A DNA stretch of 64,000 nucleotides from Macrococcoides bohemicum. GTDB lineage: Bacteria; Bacillota; Bacilli; Staphylococcales; Staphylococcaceae. The notes beneath the pieces were generated by a model. The model saw only the letters and a list, made by a program, of their open reading frames with translations. It was not told the DNA's origin and made no database searches. Position numbers and translations under genes: made by a program. The DNA lies in assembly GCF_003259675.1 (NCBI RefSeq), contig NZ_PZJG01000006.1:62001-126000 (forward strand), read 5' to 3'. Shown here piece by piece: positions 3,893 to 62,789 of this stretch. Numbering within the stretch: position 1 is the stretch's first letter; each line of letters begins with the position of its first letter.

Positions 3893-4267
3893 ATGTTTAA
3901 TCATTTAGAAGGCAATAGACCGATGCTATATTTTCTTGGTGGTGGATTGTTACTGATGTCGTTATTTTTTATGGTTGTGATATTCGAGAAACCGGAACTA
4001 TATGCGATGCAGTTAGTACTTGGCATTCATATGATTTTAATGGGAATACAAAATCGAGATGAATTGTTAGATGAACGCGTTGTCGCATTAAGCAATAGAG
4101 CATTTAAAACATCTTATATGGTGACACTACTTACAGGGATGCTATTTTTTACACTTTATACGTTTGGATTAATCACTATAAGAGCAGAAAGTGCAATTGT
4201 GATAATTTTGGCTATAATGTTTTTATCTTTTTCAGTGAGTAATTTCATGCTATGGCGAAAATATTAG
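3893..4267 (+). CDS. Small membrane protein A of the XRE operon (four predicted TM segments)
   Basis: This 124-residue protein has hydrophobic stretches near residues 17-35, 42-58, 78-98 and 102-120, so about four membrane spans. Between spans two and three lies an acidic loop, NRDELLDERVVALSNRAFKTS. A DER-containing loop followed by a membrane helix recalls the DUF2178-type proteins often encoded beside small XRE regulators, but I cannot assign the family with certainty. ATG 3893 follows a perfect AGGAGG six bases upstream. It is a likely paralogue of the next gene, sharing size, topology and the DER loop. Function unknown. Confidence 0.75.
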   Translation: MFNHLEGNRPMLYFLGGGLLLMSLFFMVVIFEKPELYAMQLVLGIHMILMGIQNRDELLDERVVALSNRAFKTSYMVTLLTGMLFFTLYTFGLITIRAESAIVIILAIMFLSFSVSNFMLWRKY

Positions 4268-4776: not shown

Positions 4777-6300
4777 CTAGTAAACACCAACTGCATCCCA
4801 AGCTGCTTTGATAGTATTTGCTTCAGTTTGACCATATAAGTCTAAAGCTGATTGAATTAATGCTGCTTTAGTATCTTTAAAGTTTGATGTTGATGTTAAG
4901 TAGTAAGATAATGCACGGTAATAAATTTGTTCTGCTTTTGATTTATCCATTTTTGTCACAGTATTGTAGAATGCTTTGTTAGGAATTCCTGAGTTGATGT
5001 GTACGCCACCCCAGTCACCGTTTTCAGTGTTAGGTAAGCGTTGGTAGTTATTCATATGCGATGGTTGATTGTAAAGTTCTGGTTGTGAGAAACTACGTAA
5101 TGCATCCCCAGCTTTTCTCGGTGTATAAACATCTTCACCCATCAAGAAGTCTGGGTCTACAAAGTAACCGAATACGTCCGACATTGATTCATTAATTGCG
5201 CCTGGCTCATTTTCATAAACAAGCCCTGCAGTATGTTCAGTTACAGCATGTGTTAATTCATGTGCGATAATATCGTTGGCACCTGATAATGAAGTGAAAG
5301 TAACACCATCACCATCGCCGTAAACCATAGCTTCGCCATTCCAGAATGCATTGTTGTAATTTGAACCATAGTGAACTACTGAGTAGATAGGTGCGCCTTT
5401 TCCGTCGTAAGAGTCACGATTGTGAGTATTTTTAAAGTAATCGTAAACTACATCGCCATAATAATGCGCATCAACTGCTGCTTTTTGACTTGAAGATGTG
5501 AAGTATTTATCAGTGTCTCTTACGATATTGAAGTTTGTTTGTGTGTTAGAAGCATCATAAGTTTCAATATTCCCAGTATGTGTAGTATCGGCTAGATAGA
5601 AGTAACTACCTTCCTGAAAGATATTTAAATTTTTATATTTATTATCAACACCGTATCCATAACCTGTCGTTGCAGCATCGTATAACATATTTTGTTTTTT
5701 GAGAATTGCGCCAGTTTCAGCATCAATTTGAACGTGCCAGTTTGCAGCTTCTGGAGAAACGTAGATTAATTGGATATTGTACACATATTTATTTTTATCT
5801 GCATTGACCGCTACTTCAGCTTTTTTAACGACTTTGCGGTTATCAAGATTTTTTACTTTATCTTTATCTGCACCGACTGCTTTAAATGCTAAATCAACTG
5901 CTTGATCTTGAGATAATTTTTGTACATTTGTTGGATTCACTTCTTTTTGGTCAAGTTCACCATTTACATGAACGACCTGGTTTTTATCGTTAACATGAAT
6001 TTTAATTTCTTTATTTAGTGCTTTTTTACCGTTATTATGAGGTTTTAATGTATAGTGTGTGAATCCTTTATCGTCTTTTTCTACTTTTGTAATTTCATAT
6101 TGTTTATAAAATTTCTTTGCAGCTTTGTCACCTGGTAAAGATTTTAAGAAGTTTTTTGCATCGATTTTTGATTGTACTTTCTGAAGGTGGTGAAGTGATT
6201 TGCTTGTTTCTGTTTTAGCAAAAGCTGTTTCGCCTTGAGATAAACTTGCTAGTAAAGTCGATGATAATACGACAGCAGGTAAAATGTACTTTTTATTCAT
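4777..6300 (-). CDS. aur: Aureolysin-type secreted zinc metalloprotease (thermolysin family, M4)
   Basis: This 507-residue preproenzyme has the length expected for aureolysin. Residues 1-28 form a signal peptide ending near AFA-KTE. An FTP/PepSY propeptide follows to about residue 205, including LSQDQAVDLAFKAV and the WHVQIDAETGAIL segment. The mature M4 domain contains the zinc motif HELTH (His347, Glu348, His351) and the third ligand in GAINESMSDVFGY. The C-terminal domain has the M4 active-site segment GGVHINSGIPNKAFY. The ATG follows AAGGAGTG by eight bases; three extra codons from a GTG at 6309 are unlikely. It is monocistronic. In S. aureus the enzyme activates other secreted proteases. 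Confidence 0.95.
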   Translation of the reverse strand: MNKKYILPAVVLSSTLLASLSQGETAFAKTETSKSLHHLQKVQSKIDAKNFLKSLPGDKAAKKFYKQYEITKVEKDDKGFTHYTLKPHNNGKKALNKEIKIHVNDKNQVVHVNGELDQKEVNPTNVQKLSQDQAVDLAFKAVGADKDKVKNLDNRKVVKKAEVAVNADKNKYVYNIQLIYVSPEAANWHVQIDAETGAILKKQNMLYDAATTGYGYGVDNKYKNLNIFQEGSYFYLADTTHTGNIETYDASNTQTNFNIVRDTDKYFTSSSQKAAVDAHYYGDVVYDYFKNTHNRDSYDGKGAPIYSVVHYGSNYNNAFWNGEAMVYGDGDGVTFTSLSGANDIIAHELTHAVTEHTAGLVYENEPGAINESMSDVFGYFVDPDFLMGEDVYTPRKAGDALRSFSQPELYNQPSHMNNYQRLPNTENGDWGGVHINSGIPNKAFYNTVTKMDKSKAEQIYYRALSYYLTSTSNFKDTKAALIQSALDLYGQTEANTIKAAWDAVGVY

Positions 6301-6544
6301 TAATAACACTCCTTATTTGTCTAAAATTTAATTACAAGATTTATTATACGGATTATCAATTTTAATACACTCGTATACACCGCAATTATTTTTACTCAAA
6401 AAAGTTAACATGAACGTATTTTACTCATTCTATGTCTTTTTCATAGAATTATTTAAAATTTATGTTGAACAAAACCCTTTGATTTTAAGATATTTAACAA
6501 AATTAACAATTTATTAGATGTTAATTTAAAAAAGTAAAAAAAGA

Positions 6545-6565
6545 TGTAGCTAATTATTAGCTACA
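6545..6565 (-). terminator. Terminator overlapping the stop codon of the 6550 gene
   Basis: A 9-bp stem (TGTAGCTAA with its complement, 3-base loop) is followed on the minus strand by a T-rich tail. The TAG stop at 6550-6552 is inside the stem. The rest of the interval 6301-6549 is very AT-rich and holds the aur promoter region; a TATAAT reading toward aur is visible at 6342-6347 without a convincing -35. Confidence 0.75.
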
Positions 6566-6936
6566 CCTTTTTCAACATATGCTCGAATCAATTTACGATC
6601 TTTTTCTCCAACTGTCTCAAAAGTAAATATACATAATGCTGCTTTCTCTGAAACATTATAATGTTCATCACCACGAGATATTTTAATAATAACTACATTA
6701 GCTGTACCGCGTTCAGTTTTATGCATTACATCGAATTGCCATTCTAAATTTGAGCTTTTGGTTTCATCGAGACAACGCTGGATACCTGCGATGAATTCAT
6801 CATATCCTTGTTCATATTTAATGCCGTCATCATAGATGATATTCGTTTGAACATTTTTATCGATGATTTCTTTAATTTTTTCAATGTTGTTGTTCTGCCA
6901 AGCAGCTAGTAAATGTACGTGTGGCATTTGTCTCAT
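6550..6936 (-). CDS. Small soluble protein, possibly NTF2/SnoaL-like
   Basis: This protein of about 128 residues begins with a helix containing HLLAAWQNNNIEKIKEIID, which suits the first helix of NTF2-like cone folds, followed by alternating strands (TNIIYDD, EWQFDVMHKTE, TANVVIIKISRG, KAALCIFTFET). That pattern supports an NTF2/SnoaL-like fold, but no catalytic residues can be named. There is no signal peptide or membrane segment. Two starts are possible, ATG 6936 and ATG 6927, neither with a strong ribosome site. It is transcribed alone toward aur and ends in its own terminator. Function unknown. Confidence 0.65.
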   Translation of the reverse strand: MRQMPHVHLLAAWQNNNIEKIKEIIDKNVQTNIIYDDGIKYEQGYDEFIAGIQRCLDETKSSNLEWQFDVMHKTERGTANVVIIKISRGDEHYNVSEKAALCIFTFETVGEKDRKLIRAYVEKGVANN

Positions 6937-7056
6937 CCTATCTTCTTTTTTATTTATACTATATCATAATCTTAAATATATAATATTAATTATTTCATTC
7001 CATTTTACTCATGTGGTAAAATATATTTAAAGAATCAGTAGAGGAGTGAAACACAG

Positions 7057-7227
7057 ATGGAATTTGTTAAATCTCTATTCAAAGCAATCTTTATTACATT
7101 TTTAGTATTATCTGTTATTGTTACTGCTGGTGCAGCTTTATTTGTTATCAGCTTTAAGAAAGATTTTGAAGATATCGAACGTCGTACGAAAGCAATCATT
7201 GCTAAAATTGAATCAGAAAATGTTTAA
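7057..7227 (+). CDS. Small single-pass membrane protein (56 aa)
   Basis: This short gene starts at an ATG preceded by GAGGAGTG. It encodes 56 residues: a basic N-terminus (MEFVKSLFKA), one hydrophobic helix (about residues 11-32, rich in Ile, Val and Ala) and a charged amphipathic tail (KKDFEDIERRTKAIIAKIE) likely to be cytoplasmic and possibly coiled-coil. A terminator begins at the stop codon, so it is an independent transcription unit. I do not recognise the family. Confidence 0.75.
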   Translation: MEFVKSLFKAIFITFLVLSVIVTAGAALFVISFKKDFEDIERRTKAIIAKIESENV

Positions 7228-7256
7228 GACTCTGTTATTTAGAGTCTTTTTATTTT
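7226..7256 (+). terminator. Terminator of the small membrane protein gene
   Basis: AAGACTCT - 7-base loop - AGAGTCTT followed by a T-run; the stem begins within the stop codon. Confidence 0.85.
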
Positions 7257-7286
7257 GCATAAAATAAATTTATCCGGGGTGTTCAA

Positions 7287-7808
7287 TTGAGTCCATTACA
7301 ATCTATTTCACAAGAAGAATTACATGGTTTAGAAAATATTCATTCAGAGCAGGAAATGTTACAGCTGATTCAATTGATGAGAAAAGAAAGACCAGTTATT
7401 CATGATATCGTAATAGGGTGTAGTAGGAATAATCTTGATTTGATAAAAGCATATCAGTTTAAATTTTTGTGGGAACAATTTGGAGGTTTAGGAGGTACAG
7501 GTGGAACTGTGCTTGCAATTGTAAGCTGGAACCCACACTCATCTTCATTTAATAAATATGTTAAACGTATCGCCAGACACATACCAGATGGTTTCGTAGC
7601 AATCGGAGAAACTGGAGGTTTTGAACAAATTATGAGAAGATTGCATCGTTTCACAGATGTAAAAGCAGATAGAACATTTGTATTTTCTTCTTTAGAATCT
7701 CAGCAAATGATTAATAGTGGTGGTATCTTTATCTTTGAAGGTATGCAAGGCACTTCAAAACTCGGTACTTATTTTTCAGTTCGTAATGGACTAATTCAAA
7801 TTACATAA
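7287..7808 (+). CDS. Protein of unknown function with Gly-rich loop (TTG start)
   Basis: This 173-residue soluble protein starts at TTG, with GGGGTG six bases upstream. It contains a glycine-rich segment, FGGLGGTGGTVLAIVSWNP, in its centre and a second glycine motif, GFVAIGETGGFEQI. Neither is a classical Walker A, since no Lys-Thr/Ser follows. A hydrophobic strand precedes the first loop (HDIVIGCSRNNLD). These alternating strands and loops suggest an alpha/beta fold. No signal peptide, membrane helix or catalytic triad is recognisable. It lies alone between two terminators. I cannot assign a family. Confidence 0.7.
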   Translation: MSPLQSISQEELHGLENIHSEQEMLQLIQLMRKERPVIHDIVIGCSRNNLDLIKAYQFKFLWEQFGGLGGTGGTVLAIVSWNPHSSSFNKYVKRIARHIPDGFVAIGETGGFEQIMRRLHRFTDVKADRTFVFSSLESQQMINSGGIFIFEGMQGTSKLGTYFSVRNGLIQIT

Positions 7809-7813
7809 ATTAA

Positions 7814-7844
7814 AACGCACATGCCATAAGCATGTGCGTTTTCT
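7814..7844. terminator. Bidirectional terminator before the LPXTG gene
   Basis: AACGCACATGC - CATAA - GCATGTGCGTT, a perfect 11-bp stem with T-rich flanks between convergent genes. Confidence 0.88.
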
Positions 7845-7846
7845 CA

Positions 7847-9151
7847 TTAAATAATATCATCATCACGCTTTTTACGTGTGAAGTACAATAATGCAACACC
7901 CGCTGCGATTGTCATAAGACCAGCTAATGGGAGTAATAAGCTCATTGCTTCACCAGTGTGCGGTAAATATTGTTCTTCATTGTTTGTCGATTTTGTGTTC
8001 GTTGTTGCATTGTTTGTTGAAGTATTATTATACGAACTTTTCCCAATACGATTATCAGAAGCGCTATCAGATTGATCACTAGAACCGTTGGTAGTGCTAT
8101 TATTACGATAGTCATTATAATTGCTGCCCGATGCATAGCTGCTATCAGATGCATAGTCATCACTTAGCGTTTTTTGTTGTGACGTATCATCCGATGTAAA
8201 TGATGGACGTGTGTTTTTTTTACTTGTTGTGTTGCTGGAATAATTATTTGCTGGAATATTATTATTACTTTCAGTACTATAATAACCATTTTCTTTACTT
8301 GTTGTGCCAGACGTAACTGAAGACTCACTATTACGTTTCATCGGATTTACTGCCTGTGGTTTTACTGGAAGCTGTGGTTTTACGTTAATATTATTAGTTG
8401 AATTACGTGTACGTGACGGTTCTCTATCCGTTACTTCATTAGAGCTATCTTCTTTCTTACTTCTTGCAAGTAATGGTGGTATATCATCAGGAGATTTGCG
8501 AATCGTTTCTTTTAACTGTGAATTTTTAGTTGTCGATTCAACAGAACGATCTCGTTTAATCGGCTTTGTTTGTGCTTCAAAGATTAAAAATTTCTCTTCA
8601 CCAGGTTCAATCTTTACATTATCTGATTCCATAGTTTTGTTGAAACTTACTTCATAGATCTTGTGTGGCTCAGTTGTATTAAAAGTTACGCTTCCGTTTG
8701 ATACTTCAGCTTGATCAACAAGTTCTCCATCATATTTTAAATATACAATGGTACCATCTTCTAGATTTAAAAATGAACGATCTACTGCATGAACTTTAAT
8801 CGTTAGATTATCTTCTGGAAGAGGAGTTTCAGTCACCGGCATATCTTCTGAAGAAGGTATAACTTTCTCGGGATTAACAACTTCGATATTATTCAGTTCG
8901 CCAGGATTAATTTCATATTCTTGTCCGGCTATTTCAATCACTTTAATATCTTCAGCAATCACTGAATAACCATCATCTAAAGCAGTAAGAGATTGTTCTT
9001 CTTCGTTTACATTGATAATAAAAGGAAAGTCTTTAATGGGTTCATCGTGTATATCATGAAAATAAAGTACTGTAGAGGTTGCTTCGGCATGTGCTGTTGA
9101 AACTGTCGTGAGGGAAGCCATAATAGCAAATGATAAAAGTATTTTTTTCAT
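7847..9151 (-). CDS. LPXTG cell-wall-anchored surface protein
   Basis: This 434-residue surface protein starts at ATG 9151 behind AAAGGAG. It opens with a signal peptide (MKKILLSFAIMASLTTVSTAHA) without a YSIRK motif. About 190 residues of beta-strand-rich, acidic sequence follow, probably two small Ig-like or Cna-B-like domains. A stalk of roughly 200 residues is rich in Ser, Asn, Thr and Asp. The sorting signal at the C-terminus is LPHTGE, a hydrophobic span and RKKRDDD, so sortase A should anchor it to peptidoglycan. The ligand is unknown. It is divergent from the comXQPA-like cluster and shares its upstream region, so co-regulation is possible. Confidence 0.9.
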   Translation of the reverse strand: MKKILLSFAIMASLTTVSTAHAEATSTVLYFHDIHDEPIKDFPFIINVNEEEQSLTALDDGYSVIAEDIKVIEIAGQEYEINPGELNNIEVVNPEKVIPSSEDMPVTETPLPEDNLTIKVHAVDRSFLNLEDGTIVYLKYDGELVDQAEVSNGSVTFNTTEPHKIYEVSFNKTMESDNVKIEPGEEKFLIFEAQTKPIKRDRSVESTTKNSQLKETIRKSPDDIPPLLARSKKEDSSNEVTDREPSRTRNSTNNINVKPQLPVKPQAVNPMKRNSESSVTSGTTSKENGYYSTESNNNIPANNYSSNTTSKKNTRPSFTSDDTSQQKTLSDDYASDSSYASGSNYNDYRNNSTTNGSSDQSDSASDNRIGKSSYNNTSTNNATTNTKSTNNEEQYLPHTGEAMSLLLPLAGLMTIAAGVALLYFTRKKRDDDII

Positions 9152-9453
9152 ATGGAACTCCTTTTTGCTTGTTGAATATATTATGACATAATTCAAAAGT
9201 AAGTGCTATAGAGTATCCAATAATTCACAATTGATTTAGTAAGTTAAAACGTAATTTATATTGTTTAATATATTGTCATATAAACGGTGTTTTTTCTTTG
9301 TTAATGCCCATTAAATGGTTATTAAGTGAAAATAGTAAATCGACTACAATGAAATAATATTGTAATTATTTTTTTAAATTCTATCGAATTTTTTGAATAT
9401 TTCGTGTATTATTATATTAGCAATATATCATTTAGTGAATGGAGGAAATTATT
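9152..9453. other. Divergent intergenic region between LPXTG gene and comX
   Basis: This 302-base, strongly AT-rich interval must hold promoters for both directions. The only ordered element I see is the 25-bp palindrome at 9301-9325. TTGAAT at 9393 and several TATATT-like hexamers near 9407-9418 could belong to a comX promoter, but spacing is too short for a confident call. Confidence 0.6.
9301..9325. promoter_or_regulatory. 25-bp imperfect palindrome upstream of comX, candidate operator
   Basis: The arms TTAAT-gc-CCATT and AATGG-tt-ATTAA are symmetric around A9313; ten of twelve positions pair. The site lies about 130 bases before the comX start and about 150 bases before the divergent LPXTG start. 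It could be the target of the LuxR-type response regulator encoded downstream; it does not match the B. subtilis ComA box. Confidence 0.45.
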
Positions 9454-9630
9454 ATGAGAGAAGAGTTAGAACAAGTTGTTTTAAAGATGAAAGAAATGAA
9501 CTTATCTCTAGAAGAATTGCTAAACCAAAACAAAAATTTAGGATTTAGCGAAGACGTAGTAACTGTAATTGACTCTACCATCCATCAAAACTTCAGAGGG
9601 CAGACTAACTTATGGGTTCAAGATCCTTGA
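9454..9630 (+). CDS. comX: ComX-like pheromone precursor peptide
   Basis: This 58-residue peptide precursor starts at ATG 9454, seven bases after GGAGG. Its N-terminal half is amphipathic and charged (LEQVVLKMKEMNLSLEELL). The middle stretch, NQNKNLGFSEDVVTVI, resembles the conserved ComX motif around 'LIGFs...'. The C-terminus carries a single tryptophan, Trp54, followed by VQDP. In Bacillus the ComX tryptophan near the C-terminus is prenylated by ComQ. comQ starts one base after this stop (TGA-T-ATG), indicating translational coupling. Identity rests on size, the lone C-terminal Trp and the comQ-comP-comA neighbours rather than on sequence identity. The order X before Q is unusual. Confidence 0.75.
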   Translation: MREELEQVVLKMKEMNLSLEELLNQNKNLGFSEDVVTVIDSTIHQNFRGQTNLWVQDP

Positions 9631-9631
9631 T

Positions 9632-10441
9632 ATGTTAGAAGAATATATTAAAGATATAATCTCTCCTTTGAAATTAGAAGAAAATCATAAAAATGAACTT
9701 CAGTCATATGCCTTAAAAAAGATTAAGCGTGATGGCTGGGGAAATTATTATTATATTATTAGTAAATTATTTAATCGAAGACAAGCTGATATGCAAAAGA
9801 ATTCTGTTGCTATTCAGCTTGTCTTTTGGGCATTTGACCTTGTTGATGATGCTGTAGATGGTGATCAGACGACGCCTGGATTATCCCATGAGCAACAGAT
9901 TGTACTTTCACATATTGTGATGATGAAAGCAATTAACTTATTTGATATTGAAATAAGAGAAGACATCATGTCTTTAATCGCTTTATCTGGATATGGTGAG
10001 TTTGAAGATATAAATTTTACTTATAATATGTATAGTAATATTACTGAAGATGATTATATCAAGATGACAACCTCTAAATCAGGGAAACTTATGGAACTTA
10101 TCGCTGTAATAATTGATAAGGAAAACCAACCATTAAGAGATTTTATGCTCAATATTGGAATTGCTGCCCAAATAAAAAACGATATTGATGGCATTCTTAT
10201 TAAAGAAAAAAGTGATTTTGAAGATAAAAAAATGTATTTACCACTTATAAAATATATATTCTTTTCAGAGGATATAAATTTAATCAACTGTACACGTGAA
10301 AATATTATTCAATCAGGGGCTTTAGATTACTGTAAACTGTTGTATAATTATTACATTGAAAAAGCATATACTATTTTATTTGATGCTTTTCCATCAATGT
10401 CAGATGATTTAAAGGGACTGAAAGATGAATTCAATTTTTAG
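9632..10441 (+). CDS. comQ: ComQ-like isoprenyl transferase (polyprenyl synthetase fold)
   Basis: This 269-residue protein belongs to the polyprenyl-synthetase superfamily. The first Asp-rich motif, DLVDDAVDGD, supplies Asp72, Asp73 and Asp76 (DDxxD). The second site is degenerate, IKNDIDG with Asp184 and Asp186, as in ComQ proteins rather than chain-elongating prenyl synthases. The expected role is transfer of a farnesyl or geranyl group to the ComX tryptophan. I chose ATG 9632; an upstream frame open to TTG 9569 lies inside comX and lacks a ribosome site. The 3' end overlaps comP by 17 bases. A terpene synthase role is the alternative, but the neighbours favour ComQ. Confidence 0.82.
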   Translation: MLEEYIKDIISPLKLEENHKNELQSYALKKIKRDGWGNYYYIISKLFNRRQADMQKNSVAIQLVFWAFDLVDDAVDGDQTTPGLSHEQQIVLSHIVMMKAINLFDIEIREDIMSLIALSGYGEFEDINFTYNMYSNITEDDYIKMTTSKSGKLMELIAVIIDKENQPLRDFMLNIGIAAQIKNDIDGILIKEKSDFEDKKMYLPLIKYIFFSEDINLINCTRENIIQSGALDYCKLLYNYYIEKAYTILFDAFPSMSDDLKGLKDEFNF

Positions 10442-12398
10442 AAATAAGAAGTTTGGTATTTATCAATATTTCTTTTTTATTATTTTTACTTTAATTCTTA
10501 ATCTCCGATTCTACGCTGCATGTAAAGAAGTCATTATCATAGGAGACGATCAAACAGAAATTTTGATTTTTACTATATGTACAGTAGTATTCAATTTTTT
10601 TGTTGCATCGATGTTATATCAGTTATTCAATAATTTTATTTCTTATGTATTAAATCATTATTTTATTATTTGTCTTTTACTTGCAAATACAATCTCATTT
10701 TCTAAACATGGAGATGAAATTAACGACTGGGTAACAACAATTGAAATATTTTTATTATTCACTGTACTTGCGATGTTGTCTAAATTTTTTAGTGTATACC
10801 CAGTATTTTCGCGTTCAAGTCATTTAAGTAGTATTGTTAGATTTAACAATTATCTTATCATCGTACTTATCGTAATTGCGACAGTATTGAATATTGCTGC
10901 AAGACACGGTGAATTTGTTACATTCTCGATGTTTATGCTCATCACAGTGTGCATCATTTTATTGCTAAGTGTATTTTATGTGATTTTCTCAATCATTCGT
11001 AACTCGCACGGTATGATTCGTCGTGAGTTGTATTTTATTCTTGCTTCGCTGTTACTTAGTATTTTACCGATGTTTACGCTTAATTTATTTTTGCATTTCT
11101 TTAATAGCAGTATTCCTTACTACTATTTATTACCGACACTCATTATCTTCCCATTGTATTTACTTTATTCTTTCTGTAAATTCAAGATAATTGTTTCAGA
11201 ATCATTTTTATCTATTGTCTTTGGTTTGTTCCAGATTTGGAATGTATTGATGTTATGTTCTATGATTGTGTTCTATATATTTTTCATCGAGCATCCATTG
11301 CTCATTACCGCAATCATTTTCCATAGCTTATTATTGGTTGGATGTGTAGCACTATACTATTTCCGTAATCGTTACACTGTAAAATATCGTGCTGTGAATA
11401 TTACAAACAATATTAATGGAAATATATATGATACTTTAATCCAGAATAATATTAAGTTATCTAATTATTATTTATTTATTGAAACGCAGGACCAATCTGA
11501 ACAGTATAAGTTTCCGGCTGGAACGTTTAATTATGATGATATCATCTCTAAGACGCATATGATTTATGAGCGTTCAACGATTGCGATTAATCAGCTGCAG
11601 GATATTACCGTATATGTTCATCGTACTGCAGTAAATAATGCATTTATAGCCATCCATTCTTCCGAGGCTGAAAAGTTTAAATATCTTGAATTTGTTCATT
11701 TATTAGAACAGTTTGAGTTCTTTATGAAAAACTATTCTACGAAGTTAATGGATGATGATTATAAGAATCGTATTTATTTATCACATGCTGCACTTGAAGA
11801 AGAACGCGAACGTTTATCGCTTTTCTTACATGATGATATTTTGCAGAATATTATTCTCGCATTGAATGAGACGAAATCTTTAGATAAAGATGGAAGTCGT
11901 GCGCACATTGAAGAGATTCTAGATGAATCAATTTATGCGATTCGTGAAGCATGTGAGGATCTATTTCCGGCAGATTTAGACGACTTTGGGTTAAACGAAA
12001 GTTTAAATAGTTTAATTCGTCGTCATCTATATGAATCAATTATTGATATTCAGCTGGATTATCAGGAAAGCAACGTTATAATTGATAAACTCATAAAAAT
12101 TAGTAGTTATCGCATGATTAAAGAATTGATTAATAATGCGATAAAACATGCCGATGCTAAACATATTAAAGTTGAAGTGGTTGAATCAATCTCATCTTTA
12201 TCATTTAAAGTTTCAGATGATGGTAAAGGTATCCCGTATCATAACGTATCCGATATTTTAGTAAGAGGATCTAACAATGGGTTAAAGTACTTGATAAACC
12301 AGGTAAACTTGTTTGATGGTACTGTAGAATTTTCGGTGTTTGACGAAAATGCATACAGACAAGGTCTTATTGTAAGTGTTACATTGCCGTTAGAATAG
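10425..12398 (+). CDS. comP: ComP-like sensor histidine kinase
   Basis: This 657-residue membrane kinase starts inside comQ. Residues 1-325 are very hydrophobic, with roughly ten membrane helices, matching the ComP membrane sensor layout. A linker of about 130 residues leads to a HisKA_3 dimerisation domain with phospho-acceptor His469 in LSLFLHDDILQ. The ATPase domain follows, with N-box KELINNAIKHA near residue 566 and G1 box DDGKGIP near 600. This NarL/DegS-class architecture pairs with LuxR-type regulators such as the next gene. It should sense the prenylated ComX peptide from outside. B. subtilis ComP is somewhat longer (769 residues). Confidence 0.87.
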   Translation: MNSIFRNKKFGIYQYFFFIIFTLILNLRFYAACKEVIIIGDDQTEILIFTICTVVFNFFVASMLYQLFNNFISYVLNHYFIICLLLANTISFSKHGDEINDWVTTIEIFLLFTVLAMLSKFFSVYPVFSRSSHLSSIVRFNNYLIIVLIVIATVLNIAARHGEFVTFSMFMLITVCIILLLSVFYVIFSIIRNSHGMIRRELYFILASLLLSILPMFTLNLFLHFFNSSIPYYYLLPTLIIFPLYLLYSFCKFKIIVSESFLSIVFGLFQIWNVLMLCSMIVFYIFFIEHPLLITAIIFHSLLLVGCVALYYFRNRYTVKYRAVNITNNINGNIYDTLIQNNIKLSNYYLFIETQDQSEQYKFPAGTFNYDDIISKTHMIYERSTIAINQLQDITVYVHRTAVNNAFIAIHSSEAEKFKYLEFVHLLEQFEFFMKNYSTKLMDDDYKNRIYLSHAALEEERERLSLFLHDDILQNIILALNETKSLDKDGSRAHIEEILDESIYAIREACEDLFPADLDDFGLNESLNSLIRRHLYESIIDIQLDYQESNVIIDKLIKISSYRMIKELINNAIKHADAKHIKVEVVESISSLSFKVSDDGKGIPYHNVSDILVRGSNNGLKYLINQVNLFDGTVEFSVFDENAYRQGLIVSVTLPLE

Positions 12399-12408
12399 AG
12401 GTGGTTTC

Positions 12409-13020
12409 ATGGTAAAAATTATTATACTTGATGACCATGAATTATTCGGTCACGGGGTTGCCAAGATTATTGAGGCTGAAGACGATTTGTCAGTGTTAAA
12501 AGTATTTACAGATCCGAATCTGCTCACGCATTATATTAAAACGTTACAGCCTAATATTGTGCTGTGTGATATTAAAATAAAAGATTTGAATGGCTTAAAC
12601 ATCGTAAAGACATATTCTAAAAAATATCCGAAAGTAAAGTTTATTATGCTTAGTGGGTACAACTTAGAAGAGTATAAGATTAAAGCTTATGAAAACGGTG
12701 CGGTCGGATTTATTTTAAAGGATGAATCTACTGATAAACTTGTAGATGGCATACGTGCAGTTTACTATTTTAATCAAAATTTAAAGCATGATATGGTATT
12801 AGCGAAACCTTTGCTTAGTGATCAGGAGAAAGAGATTTTGCGTATGATTGCTAAAGATATGAAAAATCAGGAAATCAGTGAAGCTTTATTTATCAGTAAG
12901 CGTACGGTTGAATATCACATTACGAAGCTGATTAGAAAGCTTGGTGTGGAATCAAGGTTAGGTGCTGTAATTAAAGGGATAAAGCTAGGGATTATTGAAG
13001 AAAGTGAAACGAAAATATAG
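12409..13020 (+). CDS. comA: ComA-like response regulator (NarL/LuxR family)
   Basis: This 203-residue regulator starts ten bases after comP, behind GAGGTGG. The receiver domain has acidic pocket Asp8-Asp9, phospho-acceptor Asp54 in VLCDIKIKDLNG, the Ser/Thr position in MLSGYN and Lys in FILKDES. The C-terminus is a LuxR-type HTH: LSDQEKEILRMIAKDMKNQE, then FISKRTVEYHITKLIRKLGV. It should be phosphorylated by the ComP-like kinase and bind DNA as a dimer. Its targets are not visible; the 25-bp palindrome upstream of comX is one candidate. A strong terminator starts at the next base, closing the X-Q-P-A unit. Confidence 0.87.
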   Translation: MVKIIILDDHELFGHGVAKIIEAEDDLSVLKVFTDPNLLTHYIKTLQPNIVLCDIKIKDLNGLNIVKTYSKKYPKVKFIMLSGYNLEEYKIKAYENGAVGFILKDESTDKLVDGIRAVYYFNQNLKHDMVLAKPLLSDQEKEILRMIAKDMKNQEISEALFISKRTVEYHITKLIRKLGVESRLGAVIKGIKLGIIEESETKI

Positions 13021-13047
13021 ACGCAGGACATTGTCCTGCGTTTTTTT
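13021..13047 (+). terminator. Terminator closing the comXQPA unit
   Basis: ACGCAGGAC - ATT - GTCCTGCGT, a perfect 9-bp GC-rich stem followed by seven T residues. Confidence 0.93.
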
Positions 13048-13447
13048 AATGGGTGTAAATATTGATGATATCCATAAATGAAATAAAGAAAGTCTGATGA
13101 TTACTTGTTACAGAACCTATGATAATGGCTGCCCATTGATCTATTTGCTCTATCGTCATATCGACAGACTGAATATAACCATCCATATAGTATTCGATTG
13201 TCACATCCTGATGTTTAGCAAGTGCAATGTGTAATGTTTCATTGATTTCCTGCATACGATCTTCAGAAAGCTCTGGGCGTTCAACTTTATTTTGATTTTC
13301 TATTTGTCGTCGTACATCGGCGAATTGTTGTGGCATCGTAGCAAATGGAGCCCATTTAATCATACCGCGTCCTTTAGGAATGTTGCGGTTCAGTTGCTCC
13401 GGTTCAACTTTTCTGTAATCAGTTTCGCCATAGATAGGGTGGATCAT
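13046..13447 (-). CDS. YolD-like family protein
   Basis: This 133-residue protein has the YolD signature near its N-terminus: IPKGRGMIKWAPFATMPQQF. The rest is a small alpha/beta domain with the typical YYMDGYIQSVDMTIEQID segment. YolD-like proteins often sit beside Y-family DNA polymerases, but this copy is alone; dinB lies 43 kb away. The start follows AAGGATGTGAG. No enzyme activity is established for the family as far as I know, so the role remains open. Confidence 0.85.
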   Translation of the reverse strand: MIHPIYGETDYRKVEPEQLNRNIPKGRGMIKWAPFATMPQQFADVRRQIENQNKVERPELSEDRMQEINETLHIALAKHQDVTIEYYMDGYIQSVDMTIEQIDQWAAIIIGSVTSNHQTFFISFMDIINIYTH

Positions 13448-13507
13448 TGTCTCACATCCTTCTTCTTTTCTTTCATTATACGAACATACGTTCTTATTTT
13501 CAATGAA

Positions 13508-13537
13508 AATAAGCAGTGGAATTTTCCACTGCTTATT
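13508..13537 (-). terminator. Terminator of the MFS gene
   Basis: AATAAGCAGTGGAA and its complement form a long stem with a minimal loop; the MFS stop codon (13533-13535) lies inside it. Confidence 0.85.
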
Positions 13538-14774
13538 TGTTCATTTTAAATTGATGTTTACCAGGGAGATTAAGAGCAATGACAATCAGCGTCACACCCA
13601 CAATGCCAAGAAGTGCGACATAGACACTCATCATTACACTGTTTAACACAACACCCACGATTAAACCGGAACTTGCTACAAGTCCTGCACCGCTATAACC
13701 AAGCGAACTAAATGCGATATAGCTTGCGCGTGCATCATCTGGCATCAGTTTCGCCATATATACAGAATAAATCGGACTTTGAATCAATTCTCCGATAGTT
13801 GCAAATAATATACATAGCATGAGCATCCACCACACTGTAATTGTATGCGTTAATGCATACCCGAATGTGTACATTAGTCCACCAATGACAAGCATTGTAC
13901 GCTGATTAAATGGTTCGACGAGTTTATTGACAAGAAAAGTGATCGTTACAACAAGTACTGTATTTTCAATGAGCATTAAACTCATCATGCGTACACCATC
14001 AATGTGTATACCGAACAAATCAATAGGTTTAAATACTTCATGTAAACGTACCCCGATATAGTTTGTTAAAGCAAATTCAGCAGAGAAGATAAATACGGCA
14101 GCAGCAGTGAAGAGCACGAAGCGTGTGTCCTTTAAAGCAACTTTATATTTACCGAATAGATCGCGCATCCAGTGCATATCAACGATGACTTTCTCTTTTT
14201 CGGTCGTTGGATCTTTTAAAAACTTGTAGAAGATAAACGTATTAATTAACATGATTGCAATGATAATGATAAAGAGCAGGAATCGATGTTCTTTATAAAA
14301 TAGTCCACCAATTGCTGTTCCGACAGCAGTAGCGAGGTTATTAGACCAGTATGTCGTCACATAAACTGATTTTCTGCTTACTTCATCGGTAGAATCAATG
14401 ATCAATGCTTCAAGTGCCGGAAAAATCATAGCACTAGGAATAGCGAGACACATAAAGATAATGGCCACAAGCCATGCAAGATTAATATCCGGGTGAATGA
14501 AAATCGCCATCACTGTAAAAAGGATAGCAAATATAGATTGTCCCCAGATAAGCTGTCCTTTCCGACTGAAGCGGTCTGCAAAGTAGCCACCGACAAGATT
14601 ACAAAGCAATCCGAAAATAACATTCAGTGACATGAGGATACCTGAAGTGACTTTACCGAGTTCATCAGCAATATATAAAACCATAAAAGGCATAACGCTC
14701 ATTGACGCAGCGTGATCAAAGAAACCACAAATAATTCGTAGTTTAACATTAGATGGAAAGTCTTTAAATTTCAT
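13533..14774 (-). CDS. MFS transporter, putative drug efflux
   Basis: This 413-residue protein has 12 predicted membrane helices and the MFS loop motif between helices 2 and 3, GGYFADRFSRKGQL. It resembles the multidrug-resistance MdtG/YttB-like branch. The N-terminus, MKFKDFPSNVKLRIICGFFD, is short and cytoplasmic. Substrate and direction cannot be read from sequence, though the drug:H+ antiporter class is likely. It is monocistronic. Confidence 0.88.
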   Translation of the reverse strand: MKFKDFPSNVKLRIICGFFDHAASMSVMPFMVLYIADELGKVTSGILMSLNVIFGLLCNLVGGYFADRFSRKGQLIWGQSIFAILFTVMAIFIHPDINLAWLVAIIFMCLAIPSAMIFPALEALIIDSTDEVSRKSVYVTTYWSNNLATAVGTAIGGLFYKEHRFLLFIIIIAIMLINTFIFYKFLKDPTTEKEKVIVDMHWMRDLFGKYKVALKDTRFVLFTAAAVFIFSAEFALTNYIGVRLHEVFKPIDLFGIHIDGVRMMSLMLIENTVLVVTITFLVNKLVEPFNQRTMLVIGGLMYTFGYALTHTITVWWMLMLCILFATIGELIQSPIYSVYMAKLMPDDARASYIAFSSLGYSGAGLVASSGLIVGVVLNSVMMSVYVALLGIVGVTLIVIALNLPGKHQFKMNK

Positions 14775-14840
14775 TACGGGATACCTCTAGTTGTTTTTAT
14801 TCTTATTATATTTCATAATAATCTGAAAATATACATAAAA

Positions 14841-14872
14841 AAATAAGCTAGAACAAAAGTTCTAACTTATTT
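14841..14872 (-). terminator. Terminator of the spe operon
   Basis: AAATAAG-c-TAGAAC, AAAA loop, then GTTCTA-a-CTTATTT: a long stem with one mismatch, overlapping the last codons of speB. Confidence 0.75.
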
Positions 14873-15718
14873 CGTAATTGAAAGCATTAGTTCACGTGCA
14901 ACTTTTGCAGCAACTGCATTAGAAACGCCACTGTGGTCGTATGGTGGTGACAATTCTACGATATCTGCTGCAACAACGTTCAGTTGTTCGAAGACTTTAA
15001 ATGCAGGTTCAAGTTCTTTATAAGTTAATCCACCAGGTTCAGGTGTTCCTGTGCCAGGAAAGATTGATGGGTCTAGGCAATCCAGATCAATTGTAACATA
15101 TACAGGCGTATTACCGATAATACCGGGTAAATTCTTTAATGTATCAATTGAAAACTTCTCAAGAATTGTATGTGTATCGCTCCAGTCGAACTCTTCTTTC
15201 GTACCTGAACGAATACCGTACTGATAAATTCTGTTATCACCGATAAGGTCATGTATGCGGCGTACGATTGTCGCGTGAGATAATGGTTCCCCCATATAGT
15301 CATCACGTAAGTCCGTATGTGCATCGAGTTGCACAAGAACCGTATCCGGATACTTTTCAAGAACAGCACGCATAGGGCCAAGCGTTACTAAGTGTTCGCC
15401 CCCAATCATAAACGGCAGTTTGCCTGCATTTAAAATCGTACGTGCTGTCTCTTCAAGTTCTTCTAACACTTTCACTTTGTTGCCGATTGTAATATCAACG
15501 TCGCCTGAATCCATAATGCGAACGTCTTCTAAGTCTTTGTTTAAGAATGGGCTATATGTTTCAAGACCATAGGATTCAGAACGGATTGCATCAGCTGCAA
15601 AGCGTGTACCAGGACGGTTTGAAACCGTACCGTCAAATGGTGCACCGTATATTACTGTTGTTGCTTCTTCAAATGAAGCTTCGCAACTCATATACACATG
15701 TTTATTCGGTTGCATCAT
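14867..15718 (-). CDS. speB: Agmatinase (ureohydrolase family)
   Basis: This 283-residue enzyme hydrolyses agmatine to putrescine and urea. All manganese motifs are present: GGEHLVTLG, QLDAHTDLRDDY and TIDLDCLDPS, plus the C-terminal ELSPPYDHSG. ATG 15718 follows AGGAG and overlaps speE by 17 bases. Agmatinase rather than arginase is supported by the operon, where SpeA would supply agmatine and SpeE consumes putrescine. It is the last gene of the polyamine operon. Confidence 0.92.
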   Translation of the reverse strand: MMQPNKHVYMSCEASFEEATTVIYGAPFDGTVSNRPGTRFAADAIRSESYGLETYSPFLNKDLEDVRIMDSGDVDITIGNKVKVLEELEETARTILNAGKLPFMIGGEHLVTLGPMRAVLEKYPDTVLVQLDAHTDLRDDYMGEPLSHATIVRRIHDLIGDNRIYQYGIRSGTKEEFDWSDTHTILEKFSIDTLKNLPGIIGNTPVYVTIDLDCLDPSIFPGTGTPEPGGLTYKELEPAFKVFEQLNVVAADIVELSPPYDHSGVSNAVAAKVARELMLSITK

Positions 15719-61469: not shown

Positions 61470-62789
61470 ATGAAAAAATTTGCTGCTAAAAATTTAGCGA
61501 AAGCTGCACGACGATTAAGCATTATGGCAGGTAAACGCGGAACAGATTTACCAGGTCAGATTGCGCGTAAAATTGATCCGCAAATATTAAAGAAACTAAG
61601 TGCTGAAGTTGATGAAGTGGTCTTTATTTCAGGGACGAACGGGAAGACGACGACAAGTAATTTAATCGGGCATACATTGAAACAAAATAATATTAATATT
61701 ATTCATAATACAGAAGGTGCCAACATGGCTGCCGGTATTACATCAAGTTTTATCGTACAATCTTCAAAAGATACAAAACTAGCGATTATTGAGATAGATG
61801 AAGGATCTATCCCACGAGTACTAAAAGAAATGACACCGACAAAGATGGTGTTTACGAATTTCTTTCGTGATCAGATGGACCGTTTTGGTGAGATAGACAT
61901 ATTAGTAGATAGAATCGCTGACAACATAAAAGGACGAGGCATTGAGCTGATTTTAAACGCAGATGATCCGTTTGTTTCACGCTTAAAGATTGCTAGTAAT
62001 AAAGTTACATATTATGGTATGAAAGATCATATTCATAACTTTGAAGAAAGTTCAATGATTGAAAGTAAATATTGTCCAAACTGCGGTAAAATGCTGCATT
62101 ATGATTGGATTCATTATAATCAGATTGGACATTATTCTTGTACGTGTGACTTTAGTCGAAATACACCGAAATATGAAGTTGAAGCATTAACTGAGACACC
62201 ATTCTTAAATCCGACGATTAACGGACATACATTCAATATGAAGATTGCAGGCGACTTTAACGTGTTCAATATCATTGCAGCTTACGCAGTTTTACGTGAA
62301 CTCGGATTAAATGACAAATCTATTGAAAAAGGATTTTTAACGTACACAAGCGATAATGGGCGTATGCAAAACTTTGAAAAAGGAAACAAACAAGCCATTA
62401 TCAATTTAGCGAAGAACCCAGCTGGATTGAATGCGAGCCTATCTGTCGGTGAAAAAATTGAAGGTGAGAAATCCTATTTAATCGCATTAAATGATAATGG
62501 TGCAGACGGACGTGATATTTCATGGATTTGGGATGCTGATTTTGAAAAGTTAGCACGTCAAAATATACCTTATATAATGTGTACAGGAAATCGAGCTGAA
62601 GAAGTTGCATTGCGATTGAAGTATGCAGAAATTGATGCAGAAATTCATGTGAACCAAAATATTAAAGAAGCAACGCATACAATATTGAAGCGATCTGAGT
62701 ACACAGTGTGTATTCCAAACTATACGTCTTTAGAACCGATGCATCAGGCATTAAATCAATTCTTTGAAGGAGGTAAAGGAAATGAATAG
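61470..62789 (+). CDS. murT: Lipid II isoglutaminyl synthase, MurT subunit
   Basis: This 439-residue Mur-ligase-like protein has the ATP loop [16 protein letters not shown], and a zinc-ribbon-like insertion with CPNCGK and YSCTCDFSR (four Cys), which marks MurT against other Mur ligases. The C-terminal DUF1727 domain contains NPAGLNASL and [16 protein letters not shown]. With GatD it amidates the stem-peptide D-Glu of lipid II. The start follows AGGAGG. Confidence 0.96.

Follow-up and report, generated by a model that had tools for sequence, protein, structure and literature searches.

A presumed ComX-type pheromone operon with the precursor gene first in Macrococcoides bohemicum

We analyzed a stretch of 64,000 nucleotides from Macrococcoides bohemicum (positions 62,001 to 126,000 of contig NZ_PZJG01000006.1, hereafter the window; genome size 2.4 Mb), in which four genes lie in the order X-Q-P-A, all on the + strand. 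Because they share one strand, we read X-Q-P-A as one operon. Its features, with the evidence for each, are the following.

9382-9406, + strand: 25-base block TATCGAATTTTTYGAAWATTTCGTG upstream of X, a candidate promoter or regulator site (conservation)
9454-9630, + strand: X, presumed pheromone precursor of 58 residues (translation, genus conservation, purifying selection on the leader)
9454-9576, + strand: X leader, residues 1-41, identical in the Macrococcus epidermidis and Macrococcoides goetzii copies
9577-9627, + strand: divergent C-terminal part of X, ending NLWVQDP and holding the presumed pheromone (genus comparison)
9575-10934, + strand: divergent allelic cassette covering the X core, Q and the front of P, with nearly identical DNA on both sides (comparison with M. 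epidermidis)
9632-10441, + strand: Q, ComQ-like presumed tryptophan prenyltransferase of 269 residues with an isoprenoid-synthase fold (homologues, trees, AlphaFold2, fold matches)
9845-9859, + strand: first aspartate-rich motif of Q, DDAVD, residues 72-76, of the DDxxD form (alignment)
10178-10192, + strand: pseudo second aspartate motif of Q, NDIDG, residues 183-187 (alignment)
10425-12398, + strand: P, membrane histidine kinase of 657 residues and presumed receptor (HATPase_c, hydropathy, homology to the P proteins of X-first loci)
10425-10934, + strand: residues 1-170 of P, the allele-specific part (81/170 identical to M. epidermidis, as against 472/487 for residues 171-657)
12409-13020, + strand: A, NarL/LuxR-type response regulator of 203 residues (Response_reg and GerE)
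13019-13043, + strand: intrinsic-terminator-like hairpin after A (consensus scan)

The sequence GGAGG is found at 9441-9445, 8 bases upstream of the X start. Translation of 9454-9627 gives MREELEQVVLKMKEMNLSLEELLNQNKNLGFSEDVVTVIDSTIHQNFRGQTNLWVQDP, 58 residues whose sole Trp is residue 54; the stop TGA at 9628-9630 is followed by a single T at 9631 and by the ATG of Q at 9632-9634. The earlier note had described exactly this junction and this peptide, as a ComX-like precursor gene placed ahead of comQ and ending in W-VQDP, and both the translation and the genus loci agree with it. Further downstream, the start of P overlaps the end of Q by 17 bases, and A starts ten bases after P.

Upstream of X, the block 9382-9406 is kept in the four genus loci that have aligned upstream DNA (a fifth is cut off upstream), and the DNA before it diverges. 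No second site of this kind occurs in the window at up to 3 mismatches, with a pattern built from this very site, and a promoter scan returned 22 matches vs 26.9 in shuffles, hence no excess. The intergenic region is common to X and to a divergent LPXTG surface-protein gene (7847-9151, - strand), whose product measures 418-451 aa across five genomes. About 3 kb upstream of the operon lies a gene for an M4 (thermolysin-type) metalloprotease (4777-6309, - strand; Pfam Peptidase_M4, 2e-45), a possible output of the system.

X, Q and A are present in 5 of the 9 genomes of the genus (Macrococcus/Macrococcoides): G000, G001 (Macrococcoides goetzii CCM 4927), G002 (Macrococcus sp. TMW 2.2395), G003 (Macrococcoides caseolyticum Ani-LG-066) and G008 (Macrococcus epidermidis 01/688). 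Among these, M. epidermidis and M. goetzii are close sisters of the window species. The other four genomes gave no counterpart of X, Q or A (thresholds E 1, with noise only, 0.001 and 1e-30): three had no match to X up to E 1, and the two matches in G005 (E 0.09 and 0.22, one with internal stops) are taken as noise. All five loci carrying the system have the order X-Q-P-A, and all keep the junction of stop, one base and Q start, the latter being ATG in the window and GTG in the other four. In M. goetzii, P is split into two frames (378 + 279 aa) while X, Q and A are intact, which reflects either a real loss or a sequencing error. A candidate second copy in G002 was rejected, as by eye neither X nor Q stands beside the paralogous regulator and the large upstream gene is unlike a kinase; this second regulator, 51% identical to A, adjoins a protease-like gene on the opposite strand (by eye).

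The genus copies of X were found by homology to the whole peptide, without any filter on Trp. They are 58-59 residues long, and Trp is the fifth residue from the end in 5/5. The earlier note had proposed the invariance of Trp54 and the integrity of the small frame in relatives as checks on X; Trp is thus kept at its place, and the frame is intact in all five loci, window included. Between M. epidermidis and M. caseolyticum, 20.5 of the 22.5 synonymous sites differ in leader codons 1-41 vs 16.5 of the 100.5 non-synonymous ones. As synonymous sites are near saturation while the leader protein is conserved, X is a real gene under purifying selection, more than a chance frame. The C-terminal end reads NLWVQDP in the window vs SKYWTGDF in the four other species, and both ends (WVQDP, WTGDF) have Asp as their next-to-last residue.

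Concerning Q, the AlphaFold2 model has a mean pLDDT of 89.5 and adopts the fold of prenyl synthases, which are also its top hits in the PDB (E 1.3e-7). The Pfam polyprenyl_synt model matches at E 0.00017, below its cut-off, and our profile A1 recovers ComQ-like genes across Bacilli. Tryptophan isoprenylation is reported to depend on two Asp residues of DDxxD, the first and the fifth, and on a second motif with ND or GD (PMC5331326). In Q the second motif, NDIDG, is of the pseudo-SARM type NDxxx/GDxxx, and Gln180, ahead of it, is invariant in alignment A4 of X-first sequences (where the L103 row begins one residue late and runs into the stop; in alignment A3, the L022 row is without its first residue). 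This second motif begins with ND in 57/57 ComQ-like rows vs DD in 7/7 outgroup prenyl synthases. In trees, Q falls among ComQ-like enzymes and is separated from the prenyl diphosphate synthases (support 100/100). Motifs and trees together indicate that Q is a ComQ-like enzyme, for which the prenylation of Trp itself is presumed. In vitro, the ComQ of strain RO-E-2 needed Trp second to fourth from the end (PMC5331326), whereas the Trp of the window X is fifth. A phage or viral origin was considered and rejected, no ComQ relative being found in phages or in viral contigs (searched for close relatives only).

P contains a HATPase_c domain (Pfam, 3.5e-10), ten hydrophobic segments and, by eye, the H box LHDDILQ; Pfam HisKA_3 had no match in it. 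ComP is described as a multi-pass N-terminus followed by HisKA_3 and HATPase_c, with ten hydrophobic segments predicted in most members (PMC4008528). Over residues 59-656, P is 25% identical to the X-first P of Anoxybacillus tepidamans (E 7e-30), and over residues 42-657 it matches a Priestia plasmid P (E 8e-41), whereas canonical ComP proteins match it significantly in the kinase half only. In the reciprocal test, Bacillus ndiopicus ComP searched against the window genome ranked P third of five (44 bits), two other places scoring 65 and 48 bits. A, found next to P as expected of a ComA, carries Response_reg (2.2e-19) and GerE (4.6e-19) domains. It is 41.6% identical to the A of Anoxybacillus tepidamans (E 1e-53) and 39% to that of Priestia, but 21-32% to three canonical ComA. 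Since P and A are nearer to their X-first relatives than to canonical ComP and ComA, the locus appears to work like ComQXPA but to form a branch of its own.

The receptors also differ in the number of residues that follow helix 1, a feature seen in this analysis and not taken from print. There are 12 such residues in the window P vs 87-92 in 6/6 proteins from Q-X loci. This loop is 82-92 residues long in 5/5 X-first proteins from outside Bacilli, and 9-20 in those of Macrococcus, Priestia and Anoxybacillaceae (6/6), that is, in 6 of the 7 Bacilli X-first proteins. Among long loops, weak PDZ matches were found in 4 of 5 tested (L139, L140, L152 and L072, none in L145); none was found in the P of the window, L135, L166 or L071. 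The kinase of L072 (genome G111), X-first and from Bacilli, keeps a long loop of 114 residues, unlike the rest of its branch.

Comparison with M. epidermidis revealed that the divergence of the X end belongs to a larger block. Over 5100-9575 the DNA is identical at 4181/4487 positions and over 10951-15300 at 4128/4364, but over 9576-10950 at 880/1382 (64% vs 93-95% in the flanks). In 15-base steps, it drops from 14/15 to 8/15 at the left edge, 9575 (X codon 41), and rises from 9/15 to 15/15 at the right edge, 10935 (P codon 171). At the protein level, Q is identical at 163/269 residues and A at 201/203. Inside the cassette, the window is at a distance of 0.36-0.39 from the three others compared, which are 0.25-0.30 from each other; in three stretches outside it, the window is 0.03-0.05 from M. 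epidermidis. The window, the one genome with this allele, thus carries a separate version of the peptide, its modifying enzyme and part of the sensor. This allele either predates the species split or was taken up from an unsampled source. Among B. subtilis isolates, comQ, comX and the 5' end of comP are likewise reported as poorly conserved (PMC6334282); the polymorphic X end, Q and P start of Bacillus pherotypes recall the window cassette, which is seen here across species, with one divergent-allele genome. The pheromone specificity of the window is thus likely to differ from that of the four other species, and the joint divergence of peptide core, Q and sensor front as a single allele makes it probable that the window species and its sister species form separate communication groups.

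Whether X can be called a ComX was addressed at the sequence level. Pfam ComX (PF05952), which detects a canonical ComX control at 3.7e-21, had no match up to E 1 in the X of the window, M. epidermidis or M. caseolyticum, and none in genomes G000, G003 and G008. ComX is described as 52-73 residues long with Trp within 5-10 residues of the end (PMC4008528), and all five genus copies fall within this description. Aligned by hhalign, Macrococcus X and canonical ComX reach a probability of 11% and a score of 17.63, which 0/100 column shuffles reach, the highest being 17.6. The earlier note had suggested that the NLGFSED segment may correspond to the conserved GF motif of ComX: hhalign does pair exactly that stretch with the canonical motif, but at this low probability and with a nearly equal best shuffle, and GF is lost within the genus (DLKLSAD in M. 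caseolyticum Ani-LG-066), so that the correspondence is doubtful. Adding the other Bacilli X-first precursors to those of Macrococcus raises the probability to 23% (score 19.7 vs 14.8 for the highest shuffle). The X-first precursors from outside Bacilli align with canonical ComX at 94.8% (E 5.5e-8, 0/100 shuffles as high); by this alignment they appear to be ComX relatives, so that X-first loci would include ComX relatives. Macrococcus X displays no similarity to these non-Bacilli precursors (38/100 shuffles as high) and little to the other Bacilli X-first ones (2/100 shuffles as high with Priestia, 87/100 without; BLAST against Priestia X gives E 0.027 in a single comparison). Homology of X to ComX is likely by position and partner genes, not by the sequence of X.

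The X-first order is not special to Macrococcus, being shared by Anoxybacillaceae, Priestia plasmids and genomes from outside Bacilli. In a draw of 398 Bacilli, the three best matches to Q outside the genus (G293, G356, G111) are all X-first, G293 being the Anoxybacillus tepidamans locus, with the order X-Q-P-A. No X was found beside the fourth-best match (G361, L073), a ComQ-like gene with a very long branch in the tree. The family of G293 (41 genomes) contains five more intact X-first loci and three broken or partial ones (G462, G461, G487); named Anoxybacillus and Parageobacillus records are also X-first. In a draw of 398 genomes across the phylum, 17 match at E <= 1e-20, and 13 of these loci were inspected: 11 are X-first, all outside class Bacilli, L149 is Q-X, and L156 is without X. 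Two of the 11 (L144, L148) have the order X-Q-A-P, with the regulator ahead of the kinase. For loci beyond the genus, a short frame was accepted as X when Trp lay among its final 8 (or 12) residues, which makes Trp conservation there partly circular.

Among plasmids, 12 Priestia records match, and the 7 loci opened are all X-Q-P-A, beside lantibiotic genes. Their X is annotated as a hypothetical CDS in 7/7 and is hence independent of the Trp-based picking; the annotations read hypothetical protein, polyprenyl synthetase or isoprenoid enzyme, ATP-binding protein, and response regulator. In these plasmids (L166-L172), X-Q-P-A has as neighbours a lantibiotic dehydratase and gallidermin/nisin-type lantibiotic genes, the latter in tandem arrays of two or three, perhaps as a signal-controlled bacteriocin island. 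Both gene orders are found within single genomes in G469 (L100, L126), G485 (L103, L125) and G847 (L149, L160), and probably, by score, in G462. In some X-first loci Q is no longer intact, either decayed with several stops or interrupted by an insertion of about 1.5 kb, while X and P are still open: L105 (G461), L104 with L124 (G462), and L143, from Anoxybacillus flavithermus KU2-6_11, whose X has the same sequence as that of L105. Such loci may be receivers that have ceased to produce the signal.

Four ComQ trees were built, with 52, 64, 66 and 58 rows, the rooted ones using seven heptaprenyl-type synthases as outgroup. Omitted were L079 (short), the broken Q genes L104, L105, L115, L124 and L143, as well as L130, L141, L154-L159, L162, repeats of the same gene and the close copies L111-L113; eight further rows, those with the longest branches, were dropped from the 58-row tree. 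All four trees imply a single change between X-Q and Q-X, rows marked U (X not found) being excluded from this result. In the rooted trees, Bacilli X-first sequences diverge first (92/87, 98/93 and, once the longest branches are removed, 99/96), and those X-first sequences that lie outside Bacilli group with the Q-X ones (97/88, 99/92, 98/89). ComQ of Macrococcus and Priestia form a clade (99/94). The suggestion of the earlier note that order could mark a distinct lineage is borne out by this Bacilli X-first branch, together with the order kept in all five genus loci.

The same note had called the order rearranged, a point that these trees make doubtful, as they place X-first at the base and Q-X nested. 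X-first may thus be ancestral and the Q-X order of Bacillus derived. Constraining X-first to a single clade costs 3.5-4.2 log units, however, with p-AU of 0.123, 0.204 and 0.107, and the outgroup branch is long, so that this direction of the order change is tentative. We tentatively propose, at odds slightly short of even, that X-Q-P-A is the older arrangement in prenyl-Trp pheromone systems of Bacillota and that Q-X-P-A of Bacillus arose once, that Macrococcus, Priestia plasmids and Anoxybacillaceae form a distinct, overlooked class of receptors whose extracytoplasmic loop behind helix 1 has been lost, and that part of Macrococcus uses this system for peptide quorum sensing where the staphylococcal agr is missing. 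The converse, a rearrangement of X-Q-P-A from an ancestral Q-X-P-A, we hold to be rather unlikely. It has in its favour that Q-X-P-A is the order in Bacillus, where a census calls the arrangement quite conserved (PMC4008528), and that a single X-first clade is compatible with the trees at the p-AU values above. Yet a change confined to Macrococcus does not explain the X-first loci of Anoxybacillaceae, Priestia and non-Bacilli, and the rooted trees have X-first at the base, with the branch uniting non-Bacilli X-first and Q-X supported at 97-99 / 88-92.

As for agr, the window genome gave no Pfam hit to AgrB at E <= 0.001, nor did M. epidermidis and M. goetzii. AgrB is present in 3 of the 9 genus genomes and in 45/45 genomes searched from the two largest sister genera (g3 and g4, which would be Staphylococcus and Mammaliicoccus). 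G002 and G003 carry both AgrB and X-Q-P-A, G004, G005 and G007 carry neither, and 5 of the 6 genomes of group g5 are without AgrB and without a ComQ-like gene. There is thus no clean replacement of agr by X-Q-P-A, and the pattern is suggestive only.

The gene order and its conservation, the ComQ signature of Q, the selection on X, the allelic cassette and the homology of Q, P and A to other X-first loci are established computationally. From this body of sequence comparisons, we consider, with a probability of roughly 0.85, that X-Q-P-A is a quorum-sensing operon for a ComX-type prenyl-Trp pheromone belonging to an X-first lineage, its chemistry being presumed. X would be made as a 58-residue precursor, Q would attach an isoprenyl group to Trp54, and the C-terminal end would be cleaved and released. 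The multi-pass membrane kinase P would sense the released peptide and phosphorylate A, changing gene expression; A probably regulates its own operon through the conserved block 9382-9406.

X might instead be the precursor of a bacteriocin-like lipopeptide made by Q, with P and A sensing it or controlling its production. This may be so in Paenibacillus, where three clustered genes encode a histidine kinase (PalP), a precursor (PalX) and an enzyme that prenylates Trp (PalQ) (PMC10853753), and the nearest X-Q-P-A loci outside the genus adjoin, as seen above, lantibiotic genes. However, from X to the terminator there is no gene besides those four, hence no transporter, protease or immunity gene, and the joint variation of the core, Q and the receptor part fits a signal and its receptor. 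PalQ is moreover described as a cluster apart from ComQ, needing Trp at the very C-terminus (PMC10853753), while Trp is fifth from the end in X. We therefore judge the lipopeptide improbable. That X is a chance or relict frame and Q an ordinary prenyl diphosphate synthase is very improbable: the sub-threshold match of Q to polyprenyl_synt points that way, as does a weak match of X to Pfam Exonuc_VII_S, the small subunit of exonuclease VII (E 0.0072, residues 2-25, below cut-off), but the purifying selection on the leader and the conservation of Trp speak against a chance frame, ND replaces DD at the second motif of Q, and Q falls outside the synthases. The notion of X as an XseB relict was rejected, this match being one short stretch that is missing for the M. 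caseolyticum copy.

In the published census, X is placed between Q and P (PMC4008528), and its text, species table S1 aside, names no Staphylococcaceae. The name 'comXQPA' in PMC6334282 and PMC8895600 designates the Bacillus-type system, not the X-first order; the latter text also reports the pathway in clostridia. No description of the X-first order was found in the open-licence PMC texts consulted, among them PMC4008528, PMC10853753, PMC13290415, PMC5331326, PMC6334282 and PMC8895600. An X-first branch in Bacilli and other classes, with a different receptor front in part of it, would broaden the range over which this signal type is known and offer a natural comparison for the matching of receptor and peptide. 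X-Q-P-A would also bring a Bacillus-type pheromone into Staphylococcaceae.

ComQXPA is the system by which Bacillus senses crowding. The window locus shares with that of B. subtilis and its relatives four genes on one strand, a small precursor with Trp near its end, a transferase with DDxxD and ND, a multi-pass kinase and a NarL-type regulator, as well as variability in the X end, Q and the P start. It differs in that the order is X-Q, not Q-X, that X is missed by the ComX model and has its Trp fifth from the end, that 12 residues instead of 87-92 follow helix 1 of the kinase, and that A is 21-32% identical to the three canonical ComA compared. The Paenibacillus alvei PalQ-PalX-PalP likewise pairs a histidine kinase and a small precursor with a Trp prenyltransferase from the isoprenoid-synthase superfamily, but its enzyme forms a separate cluster, its Trp is C-terminal and its leader is of NHLP type (PMC10853753); it is set apart here by description, not by sequence. 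Closer are the Anoxybacillaceae (e.g. Anoxybacillus tepidamans PS2, L135), which have the same order, a short-loop receptor and an A at the 41.6% identity given above; their X, however, ends in NLWV, NPWV, RPWV or DQWL, with Trp second last, and G469 and G485 also hold a Q-X-P locus. The Priestia megaterium/aryabhattai plasmids (pBM700 type) share the X-Q-P-A order, the nearest ComQ outside the genus, P and A related over most of their length and the short P loop; they differ in being plasmid-borne beside gallidermin/nisin-type lantibiotic genes, and in an X that ends in NEWV, with Trp second last and LW near its start.
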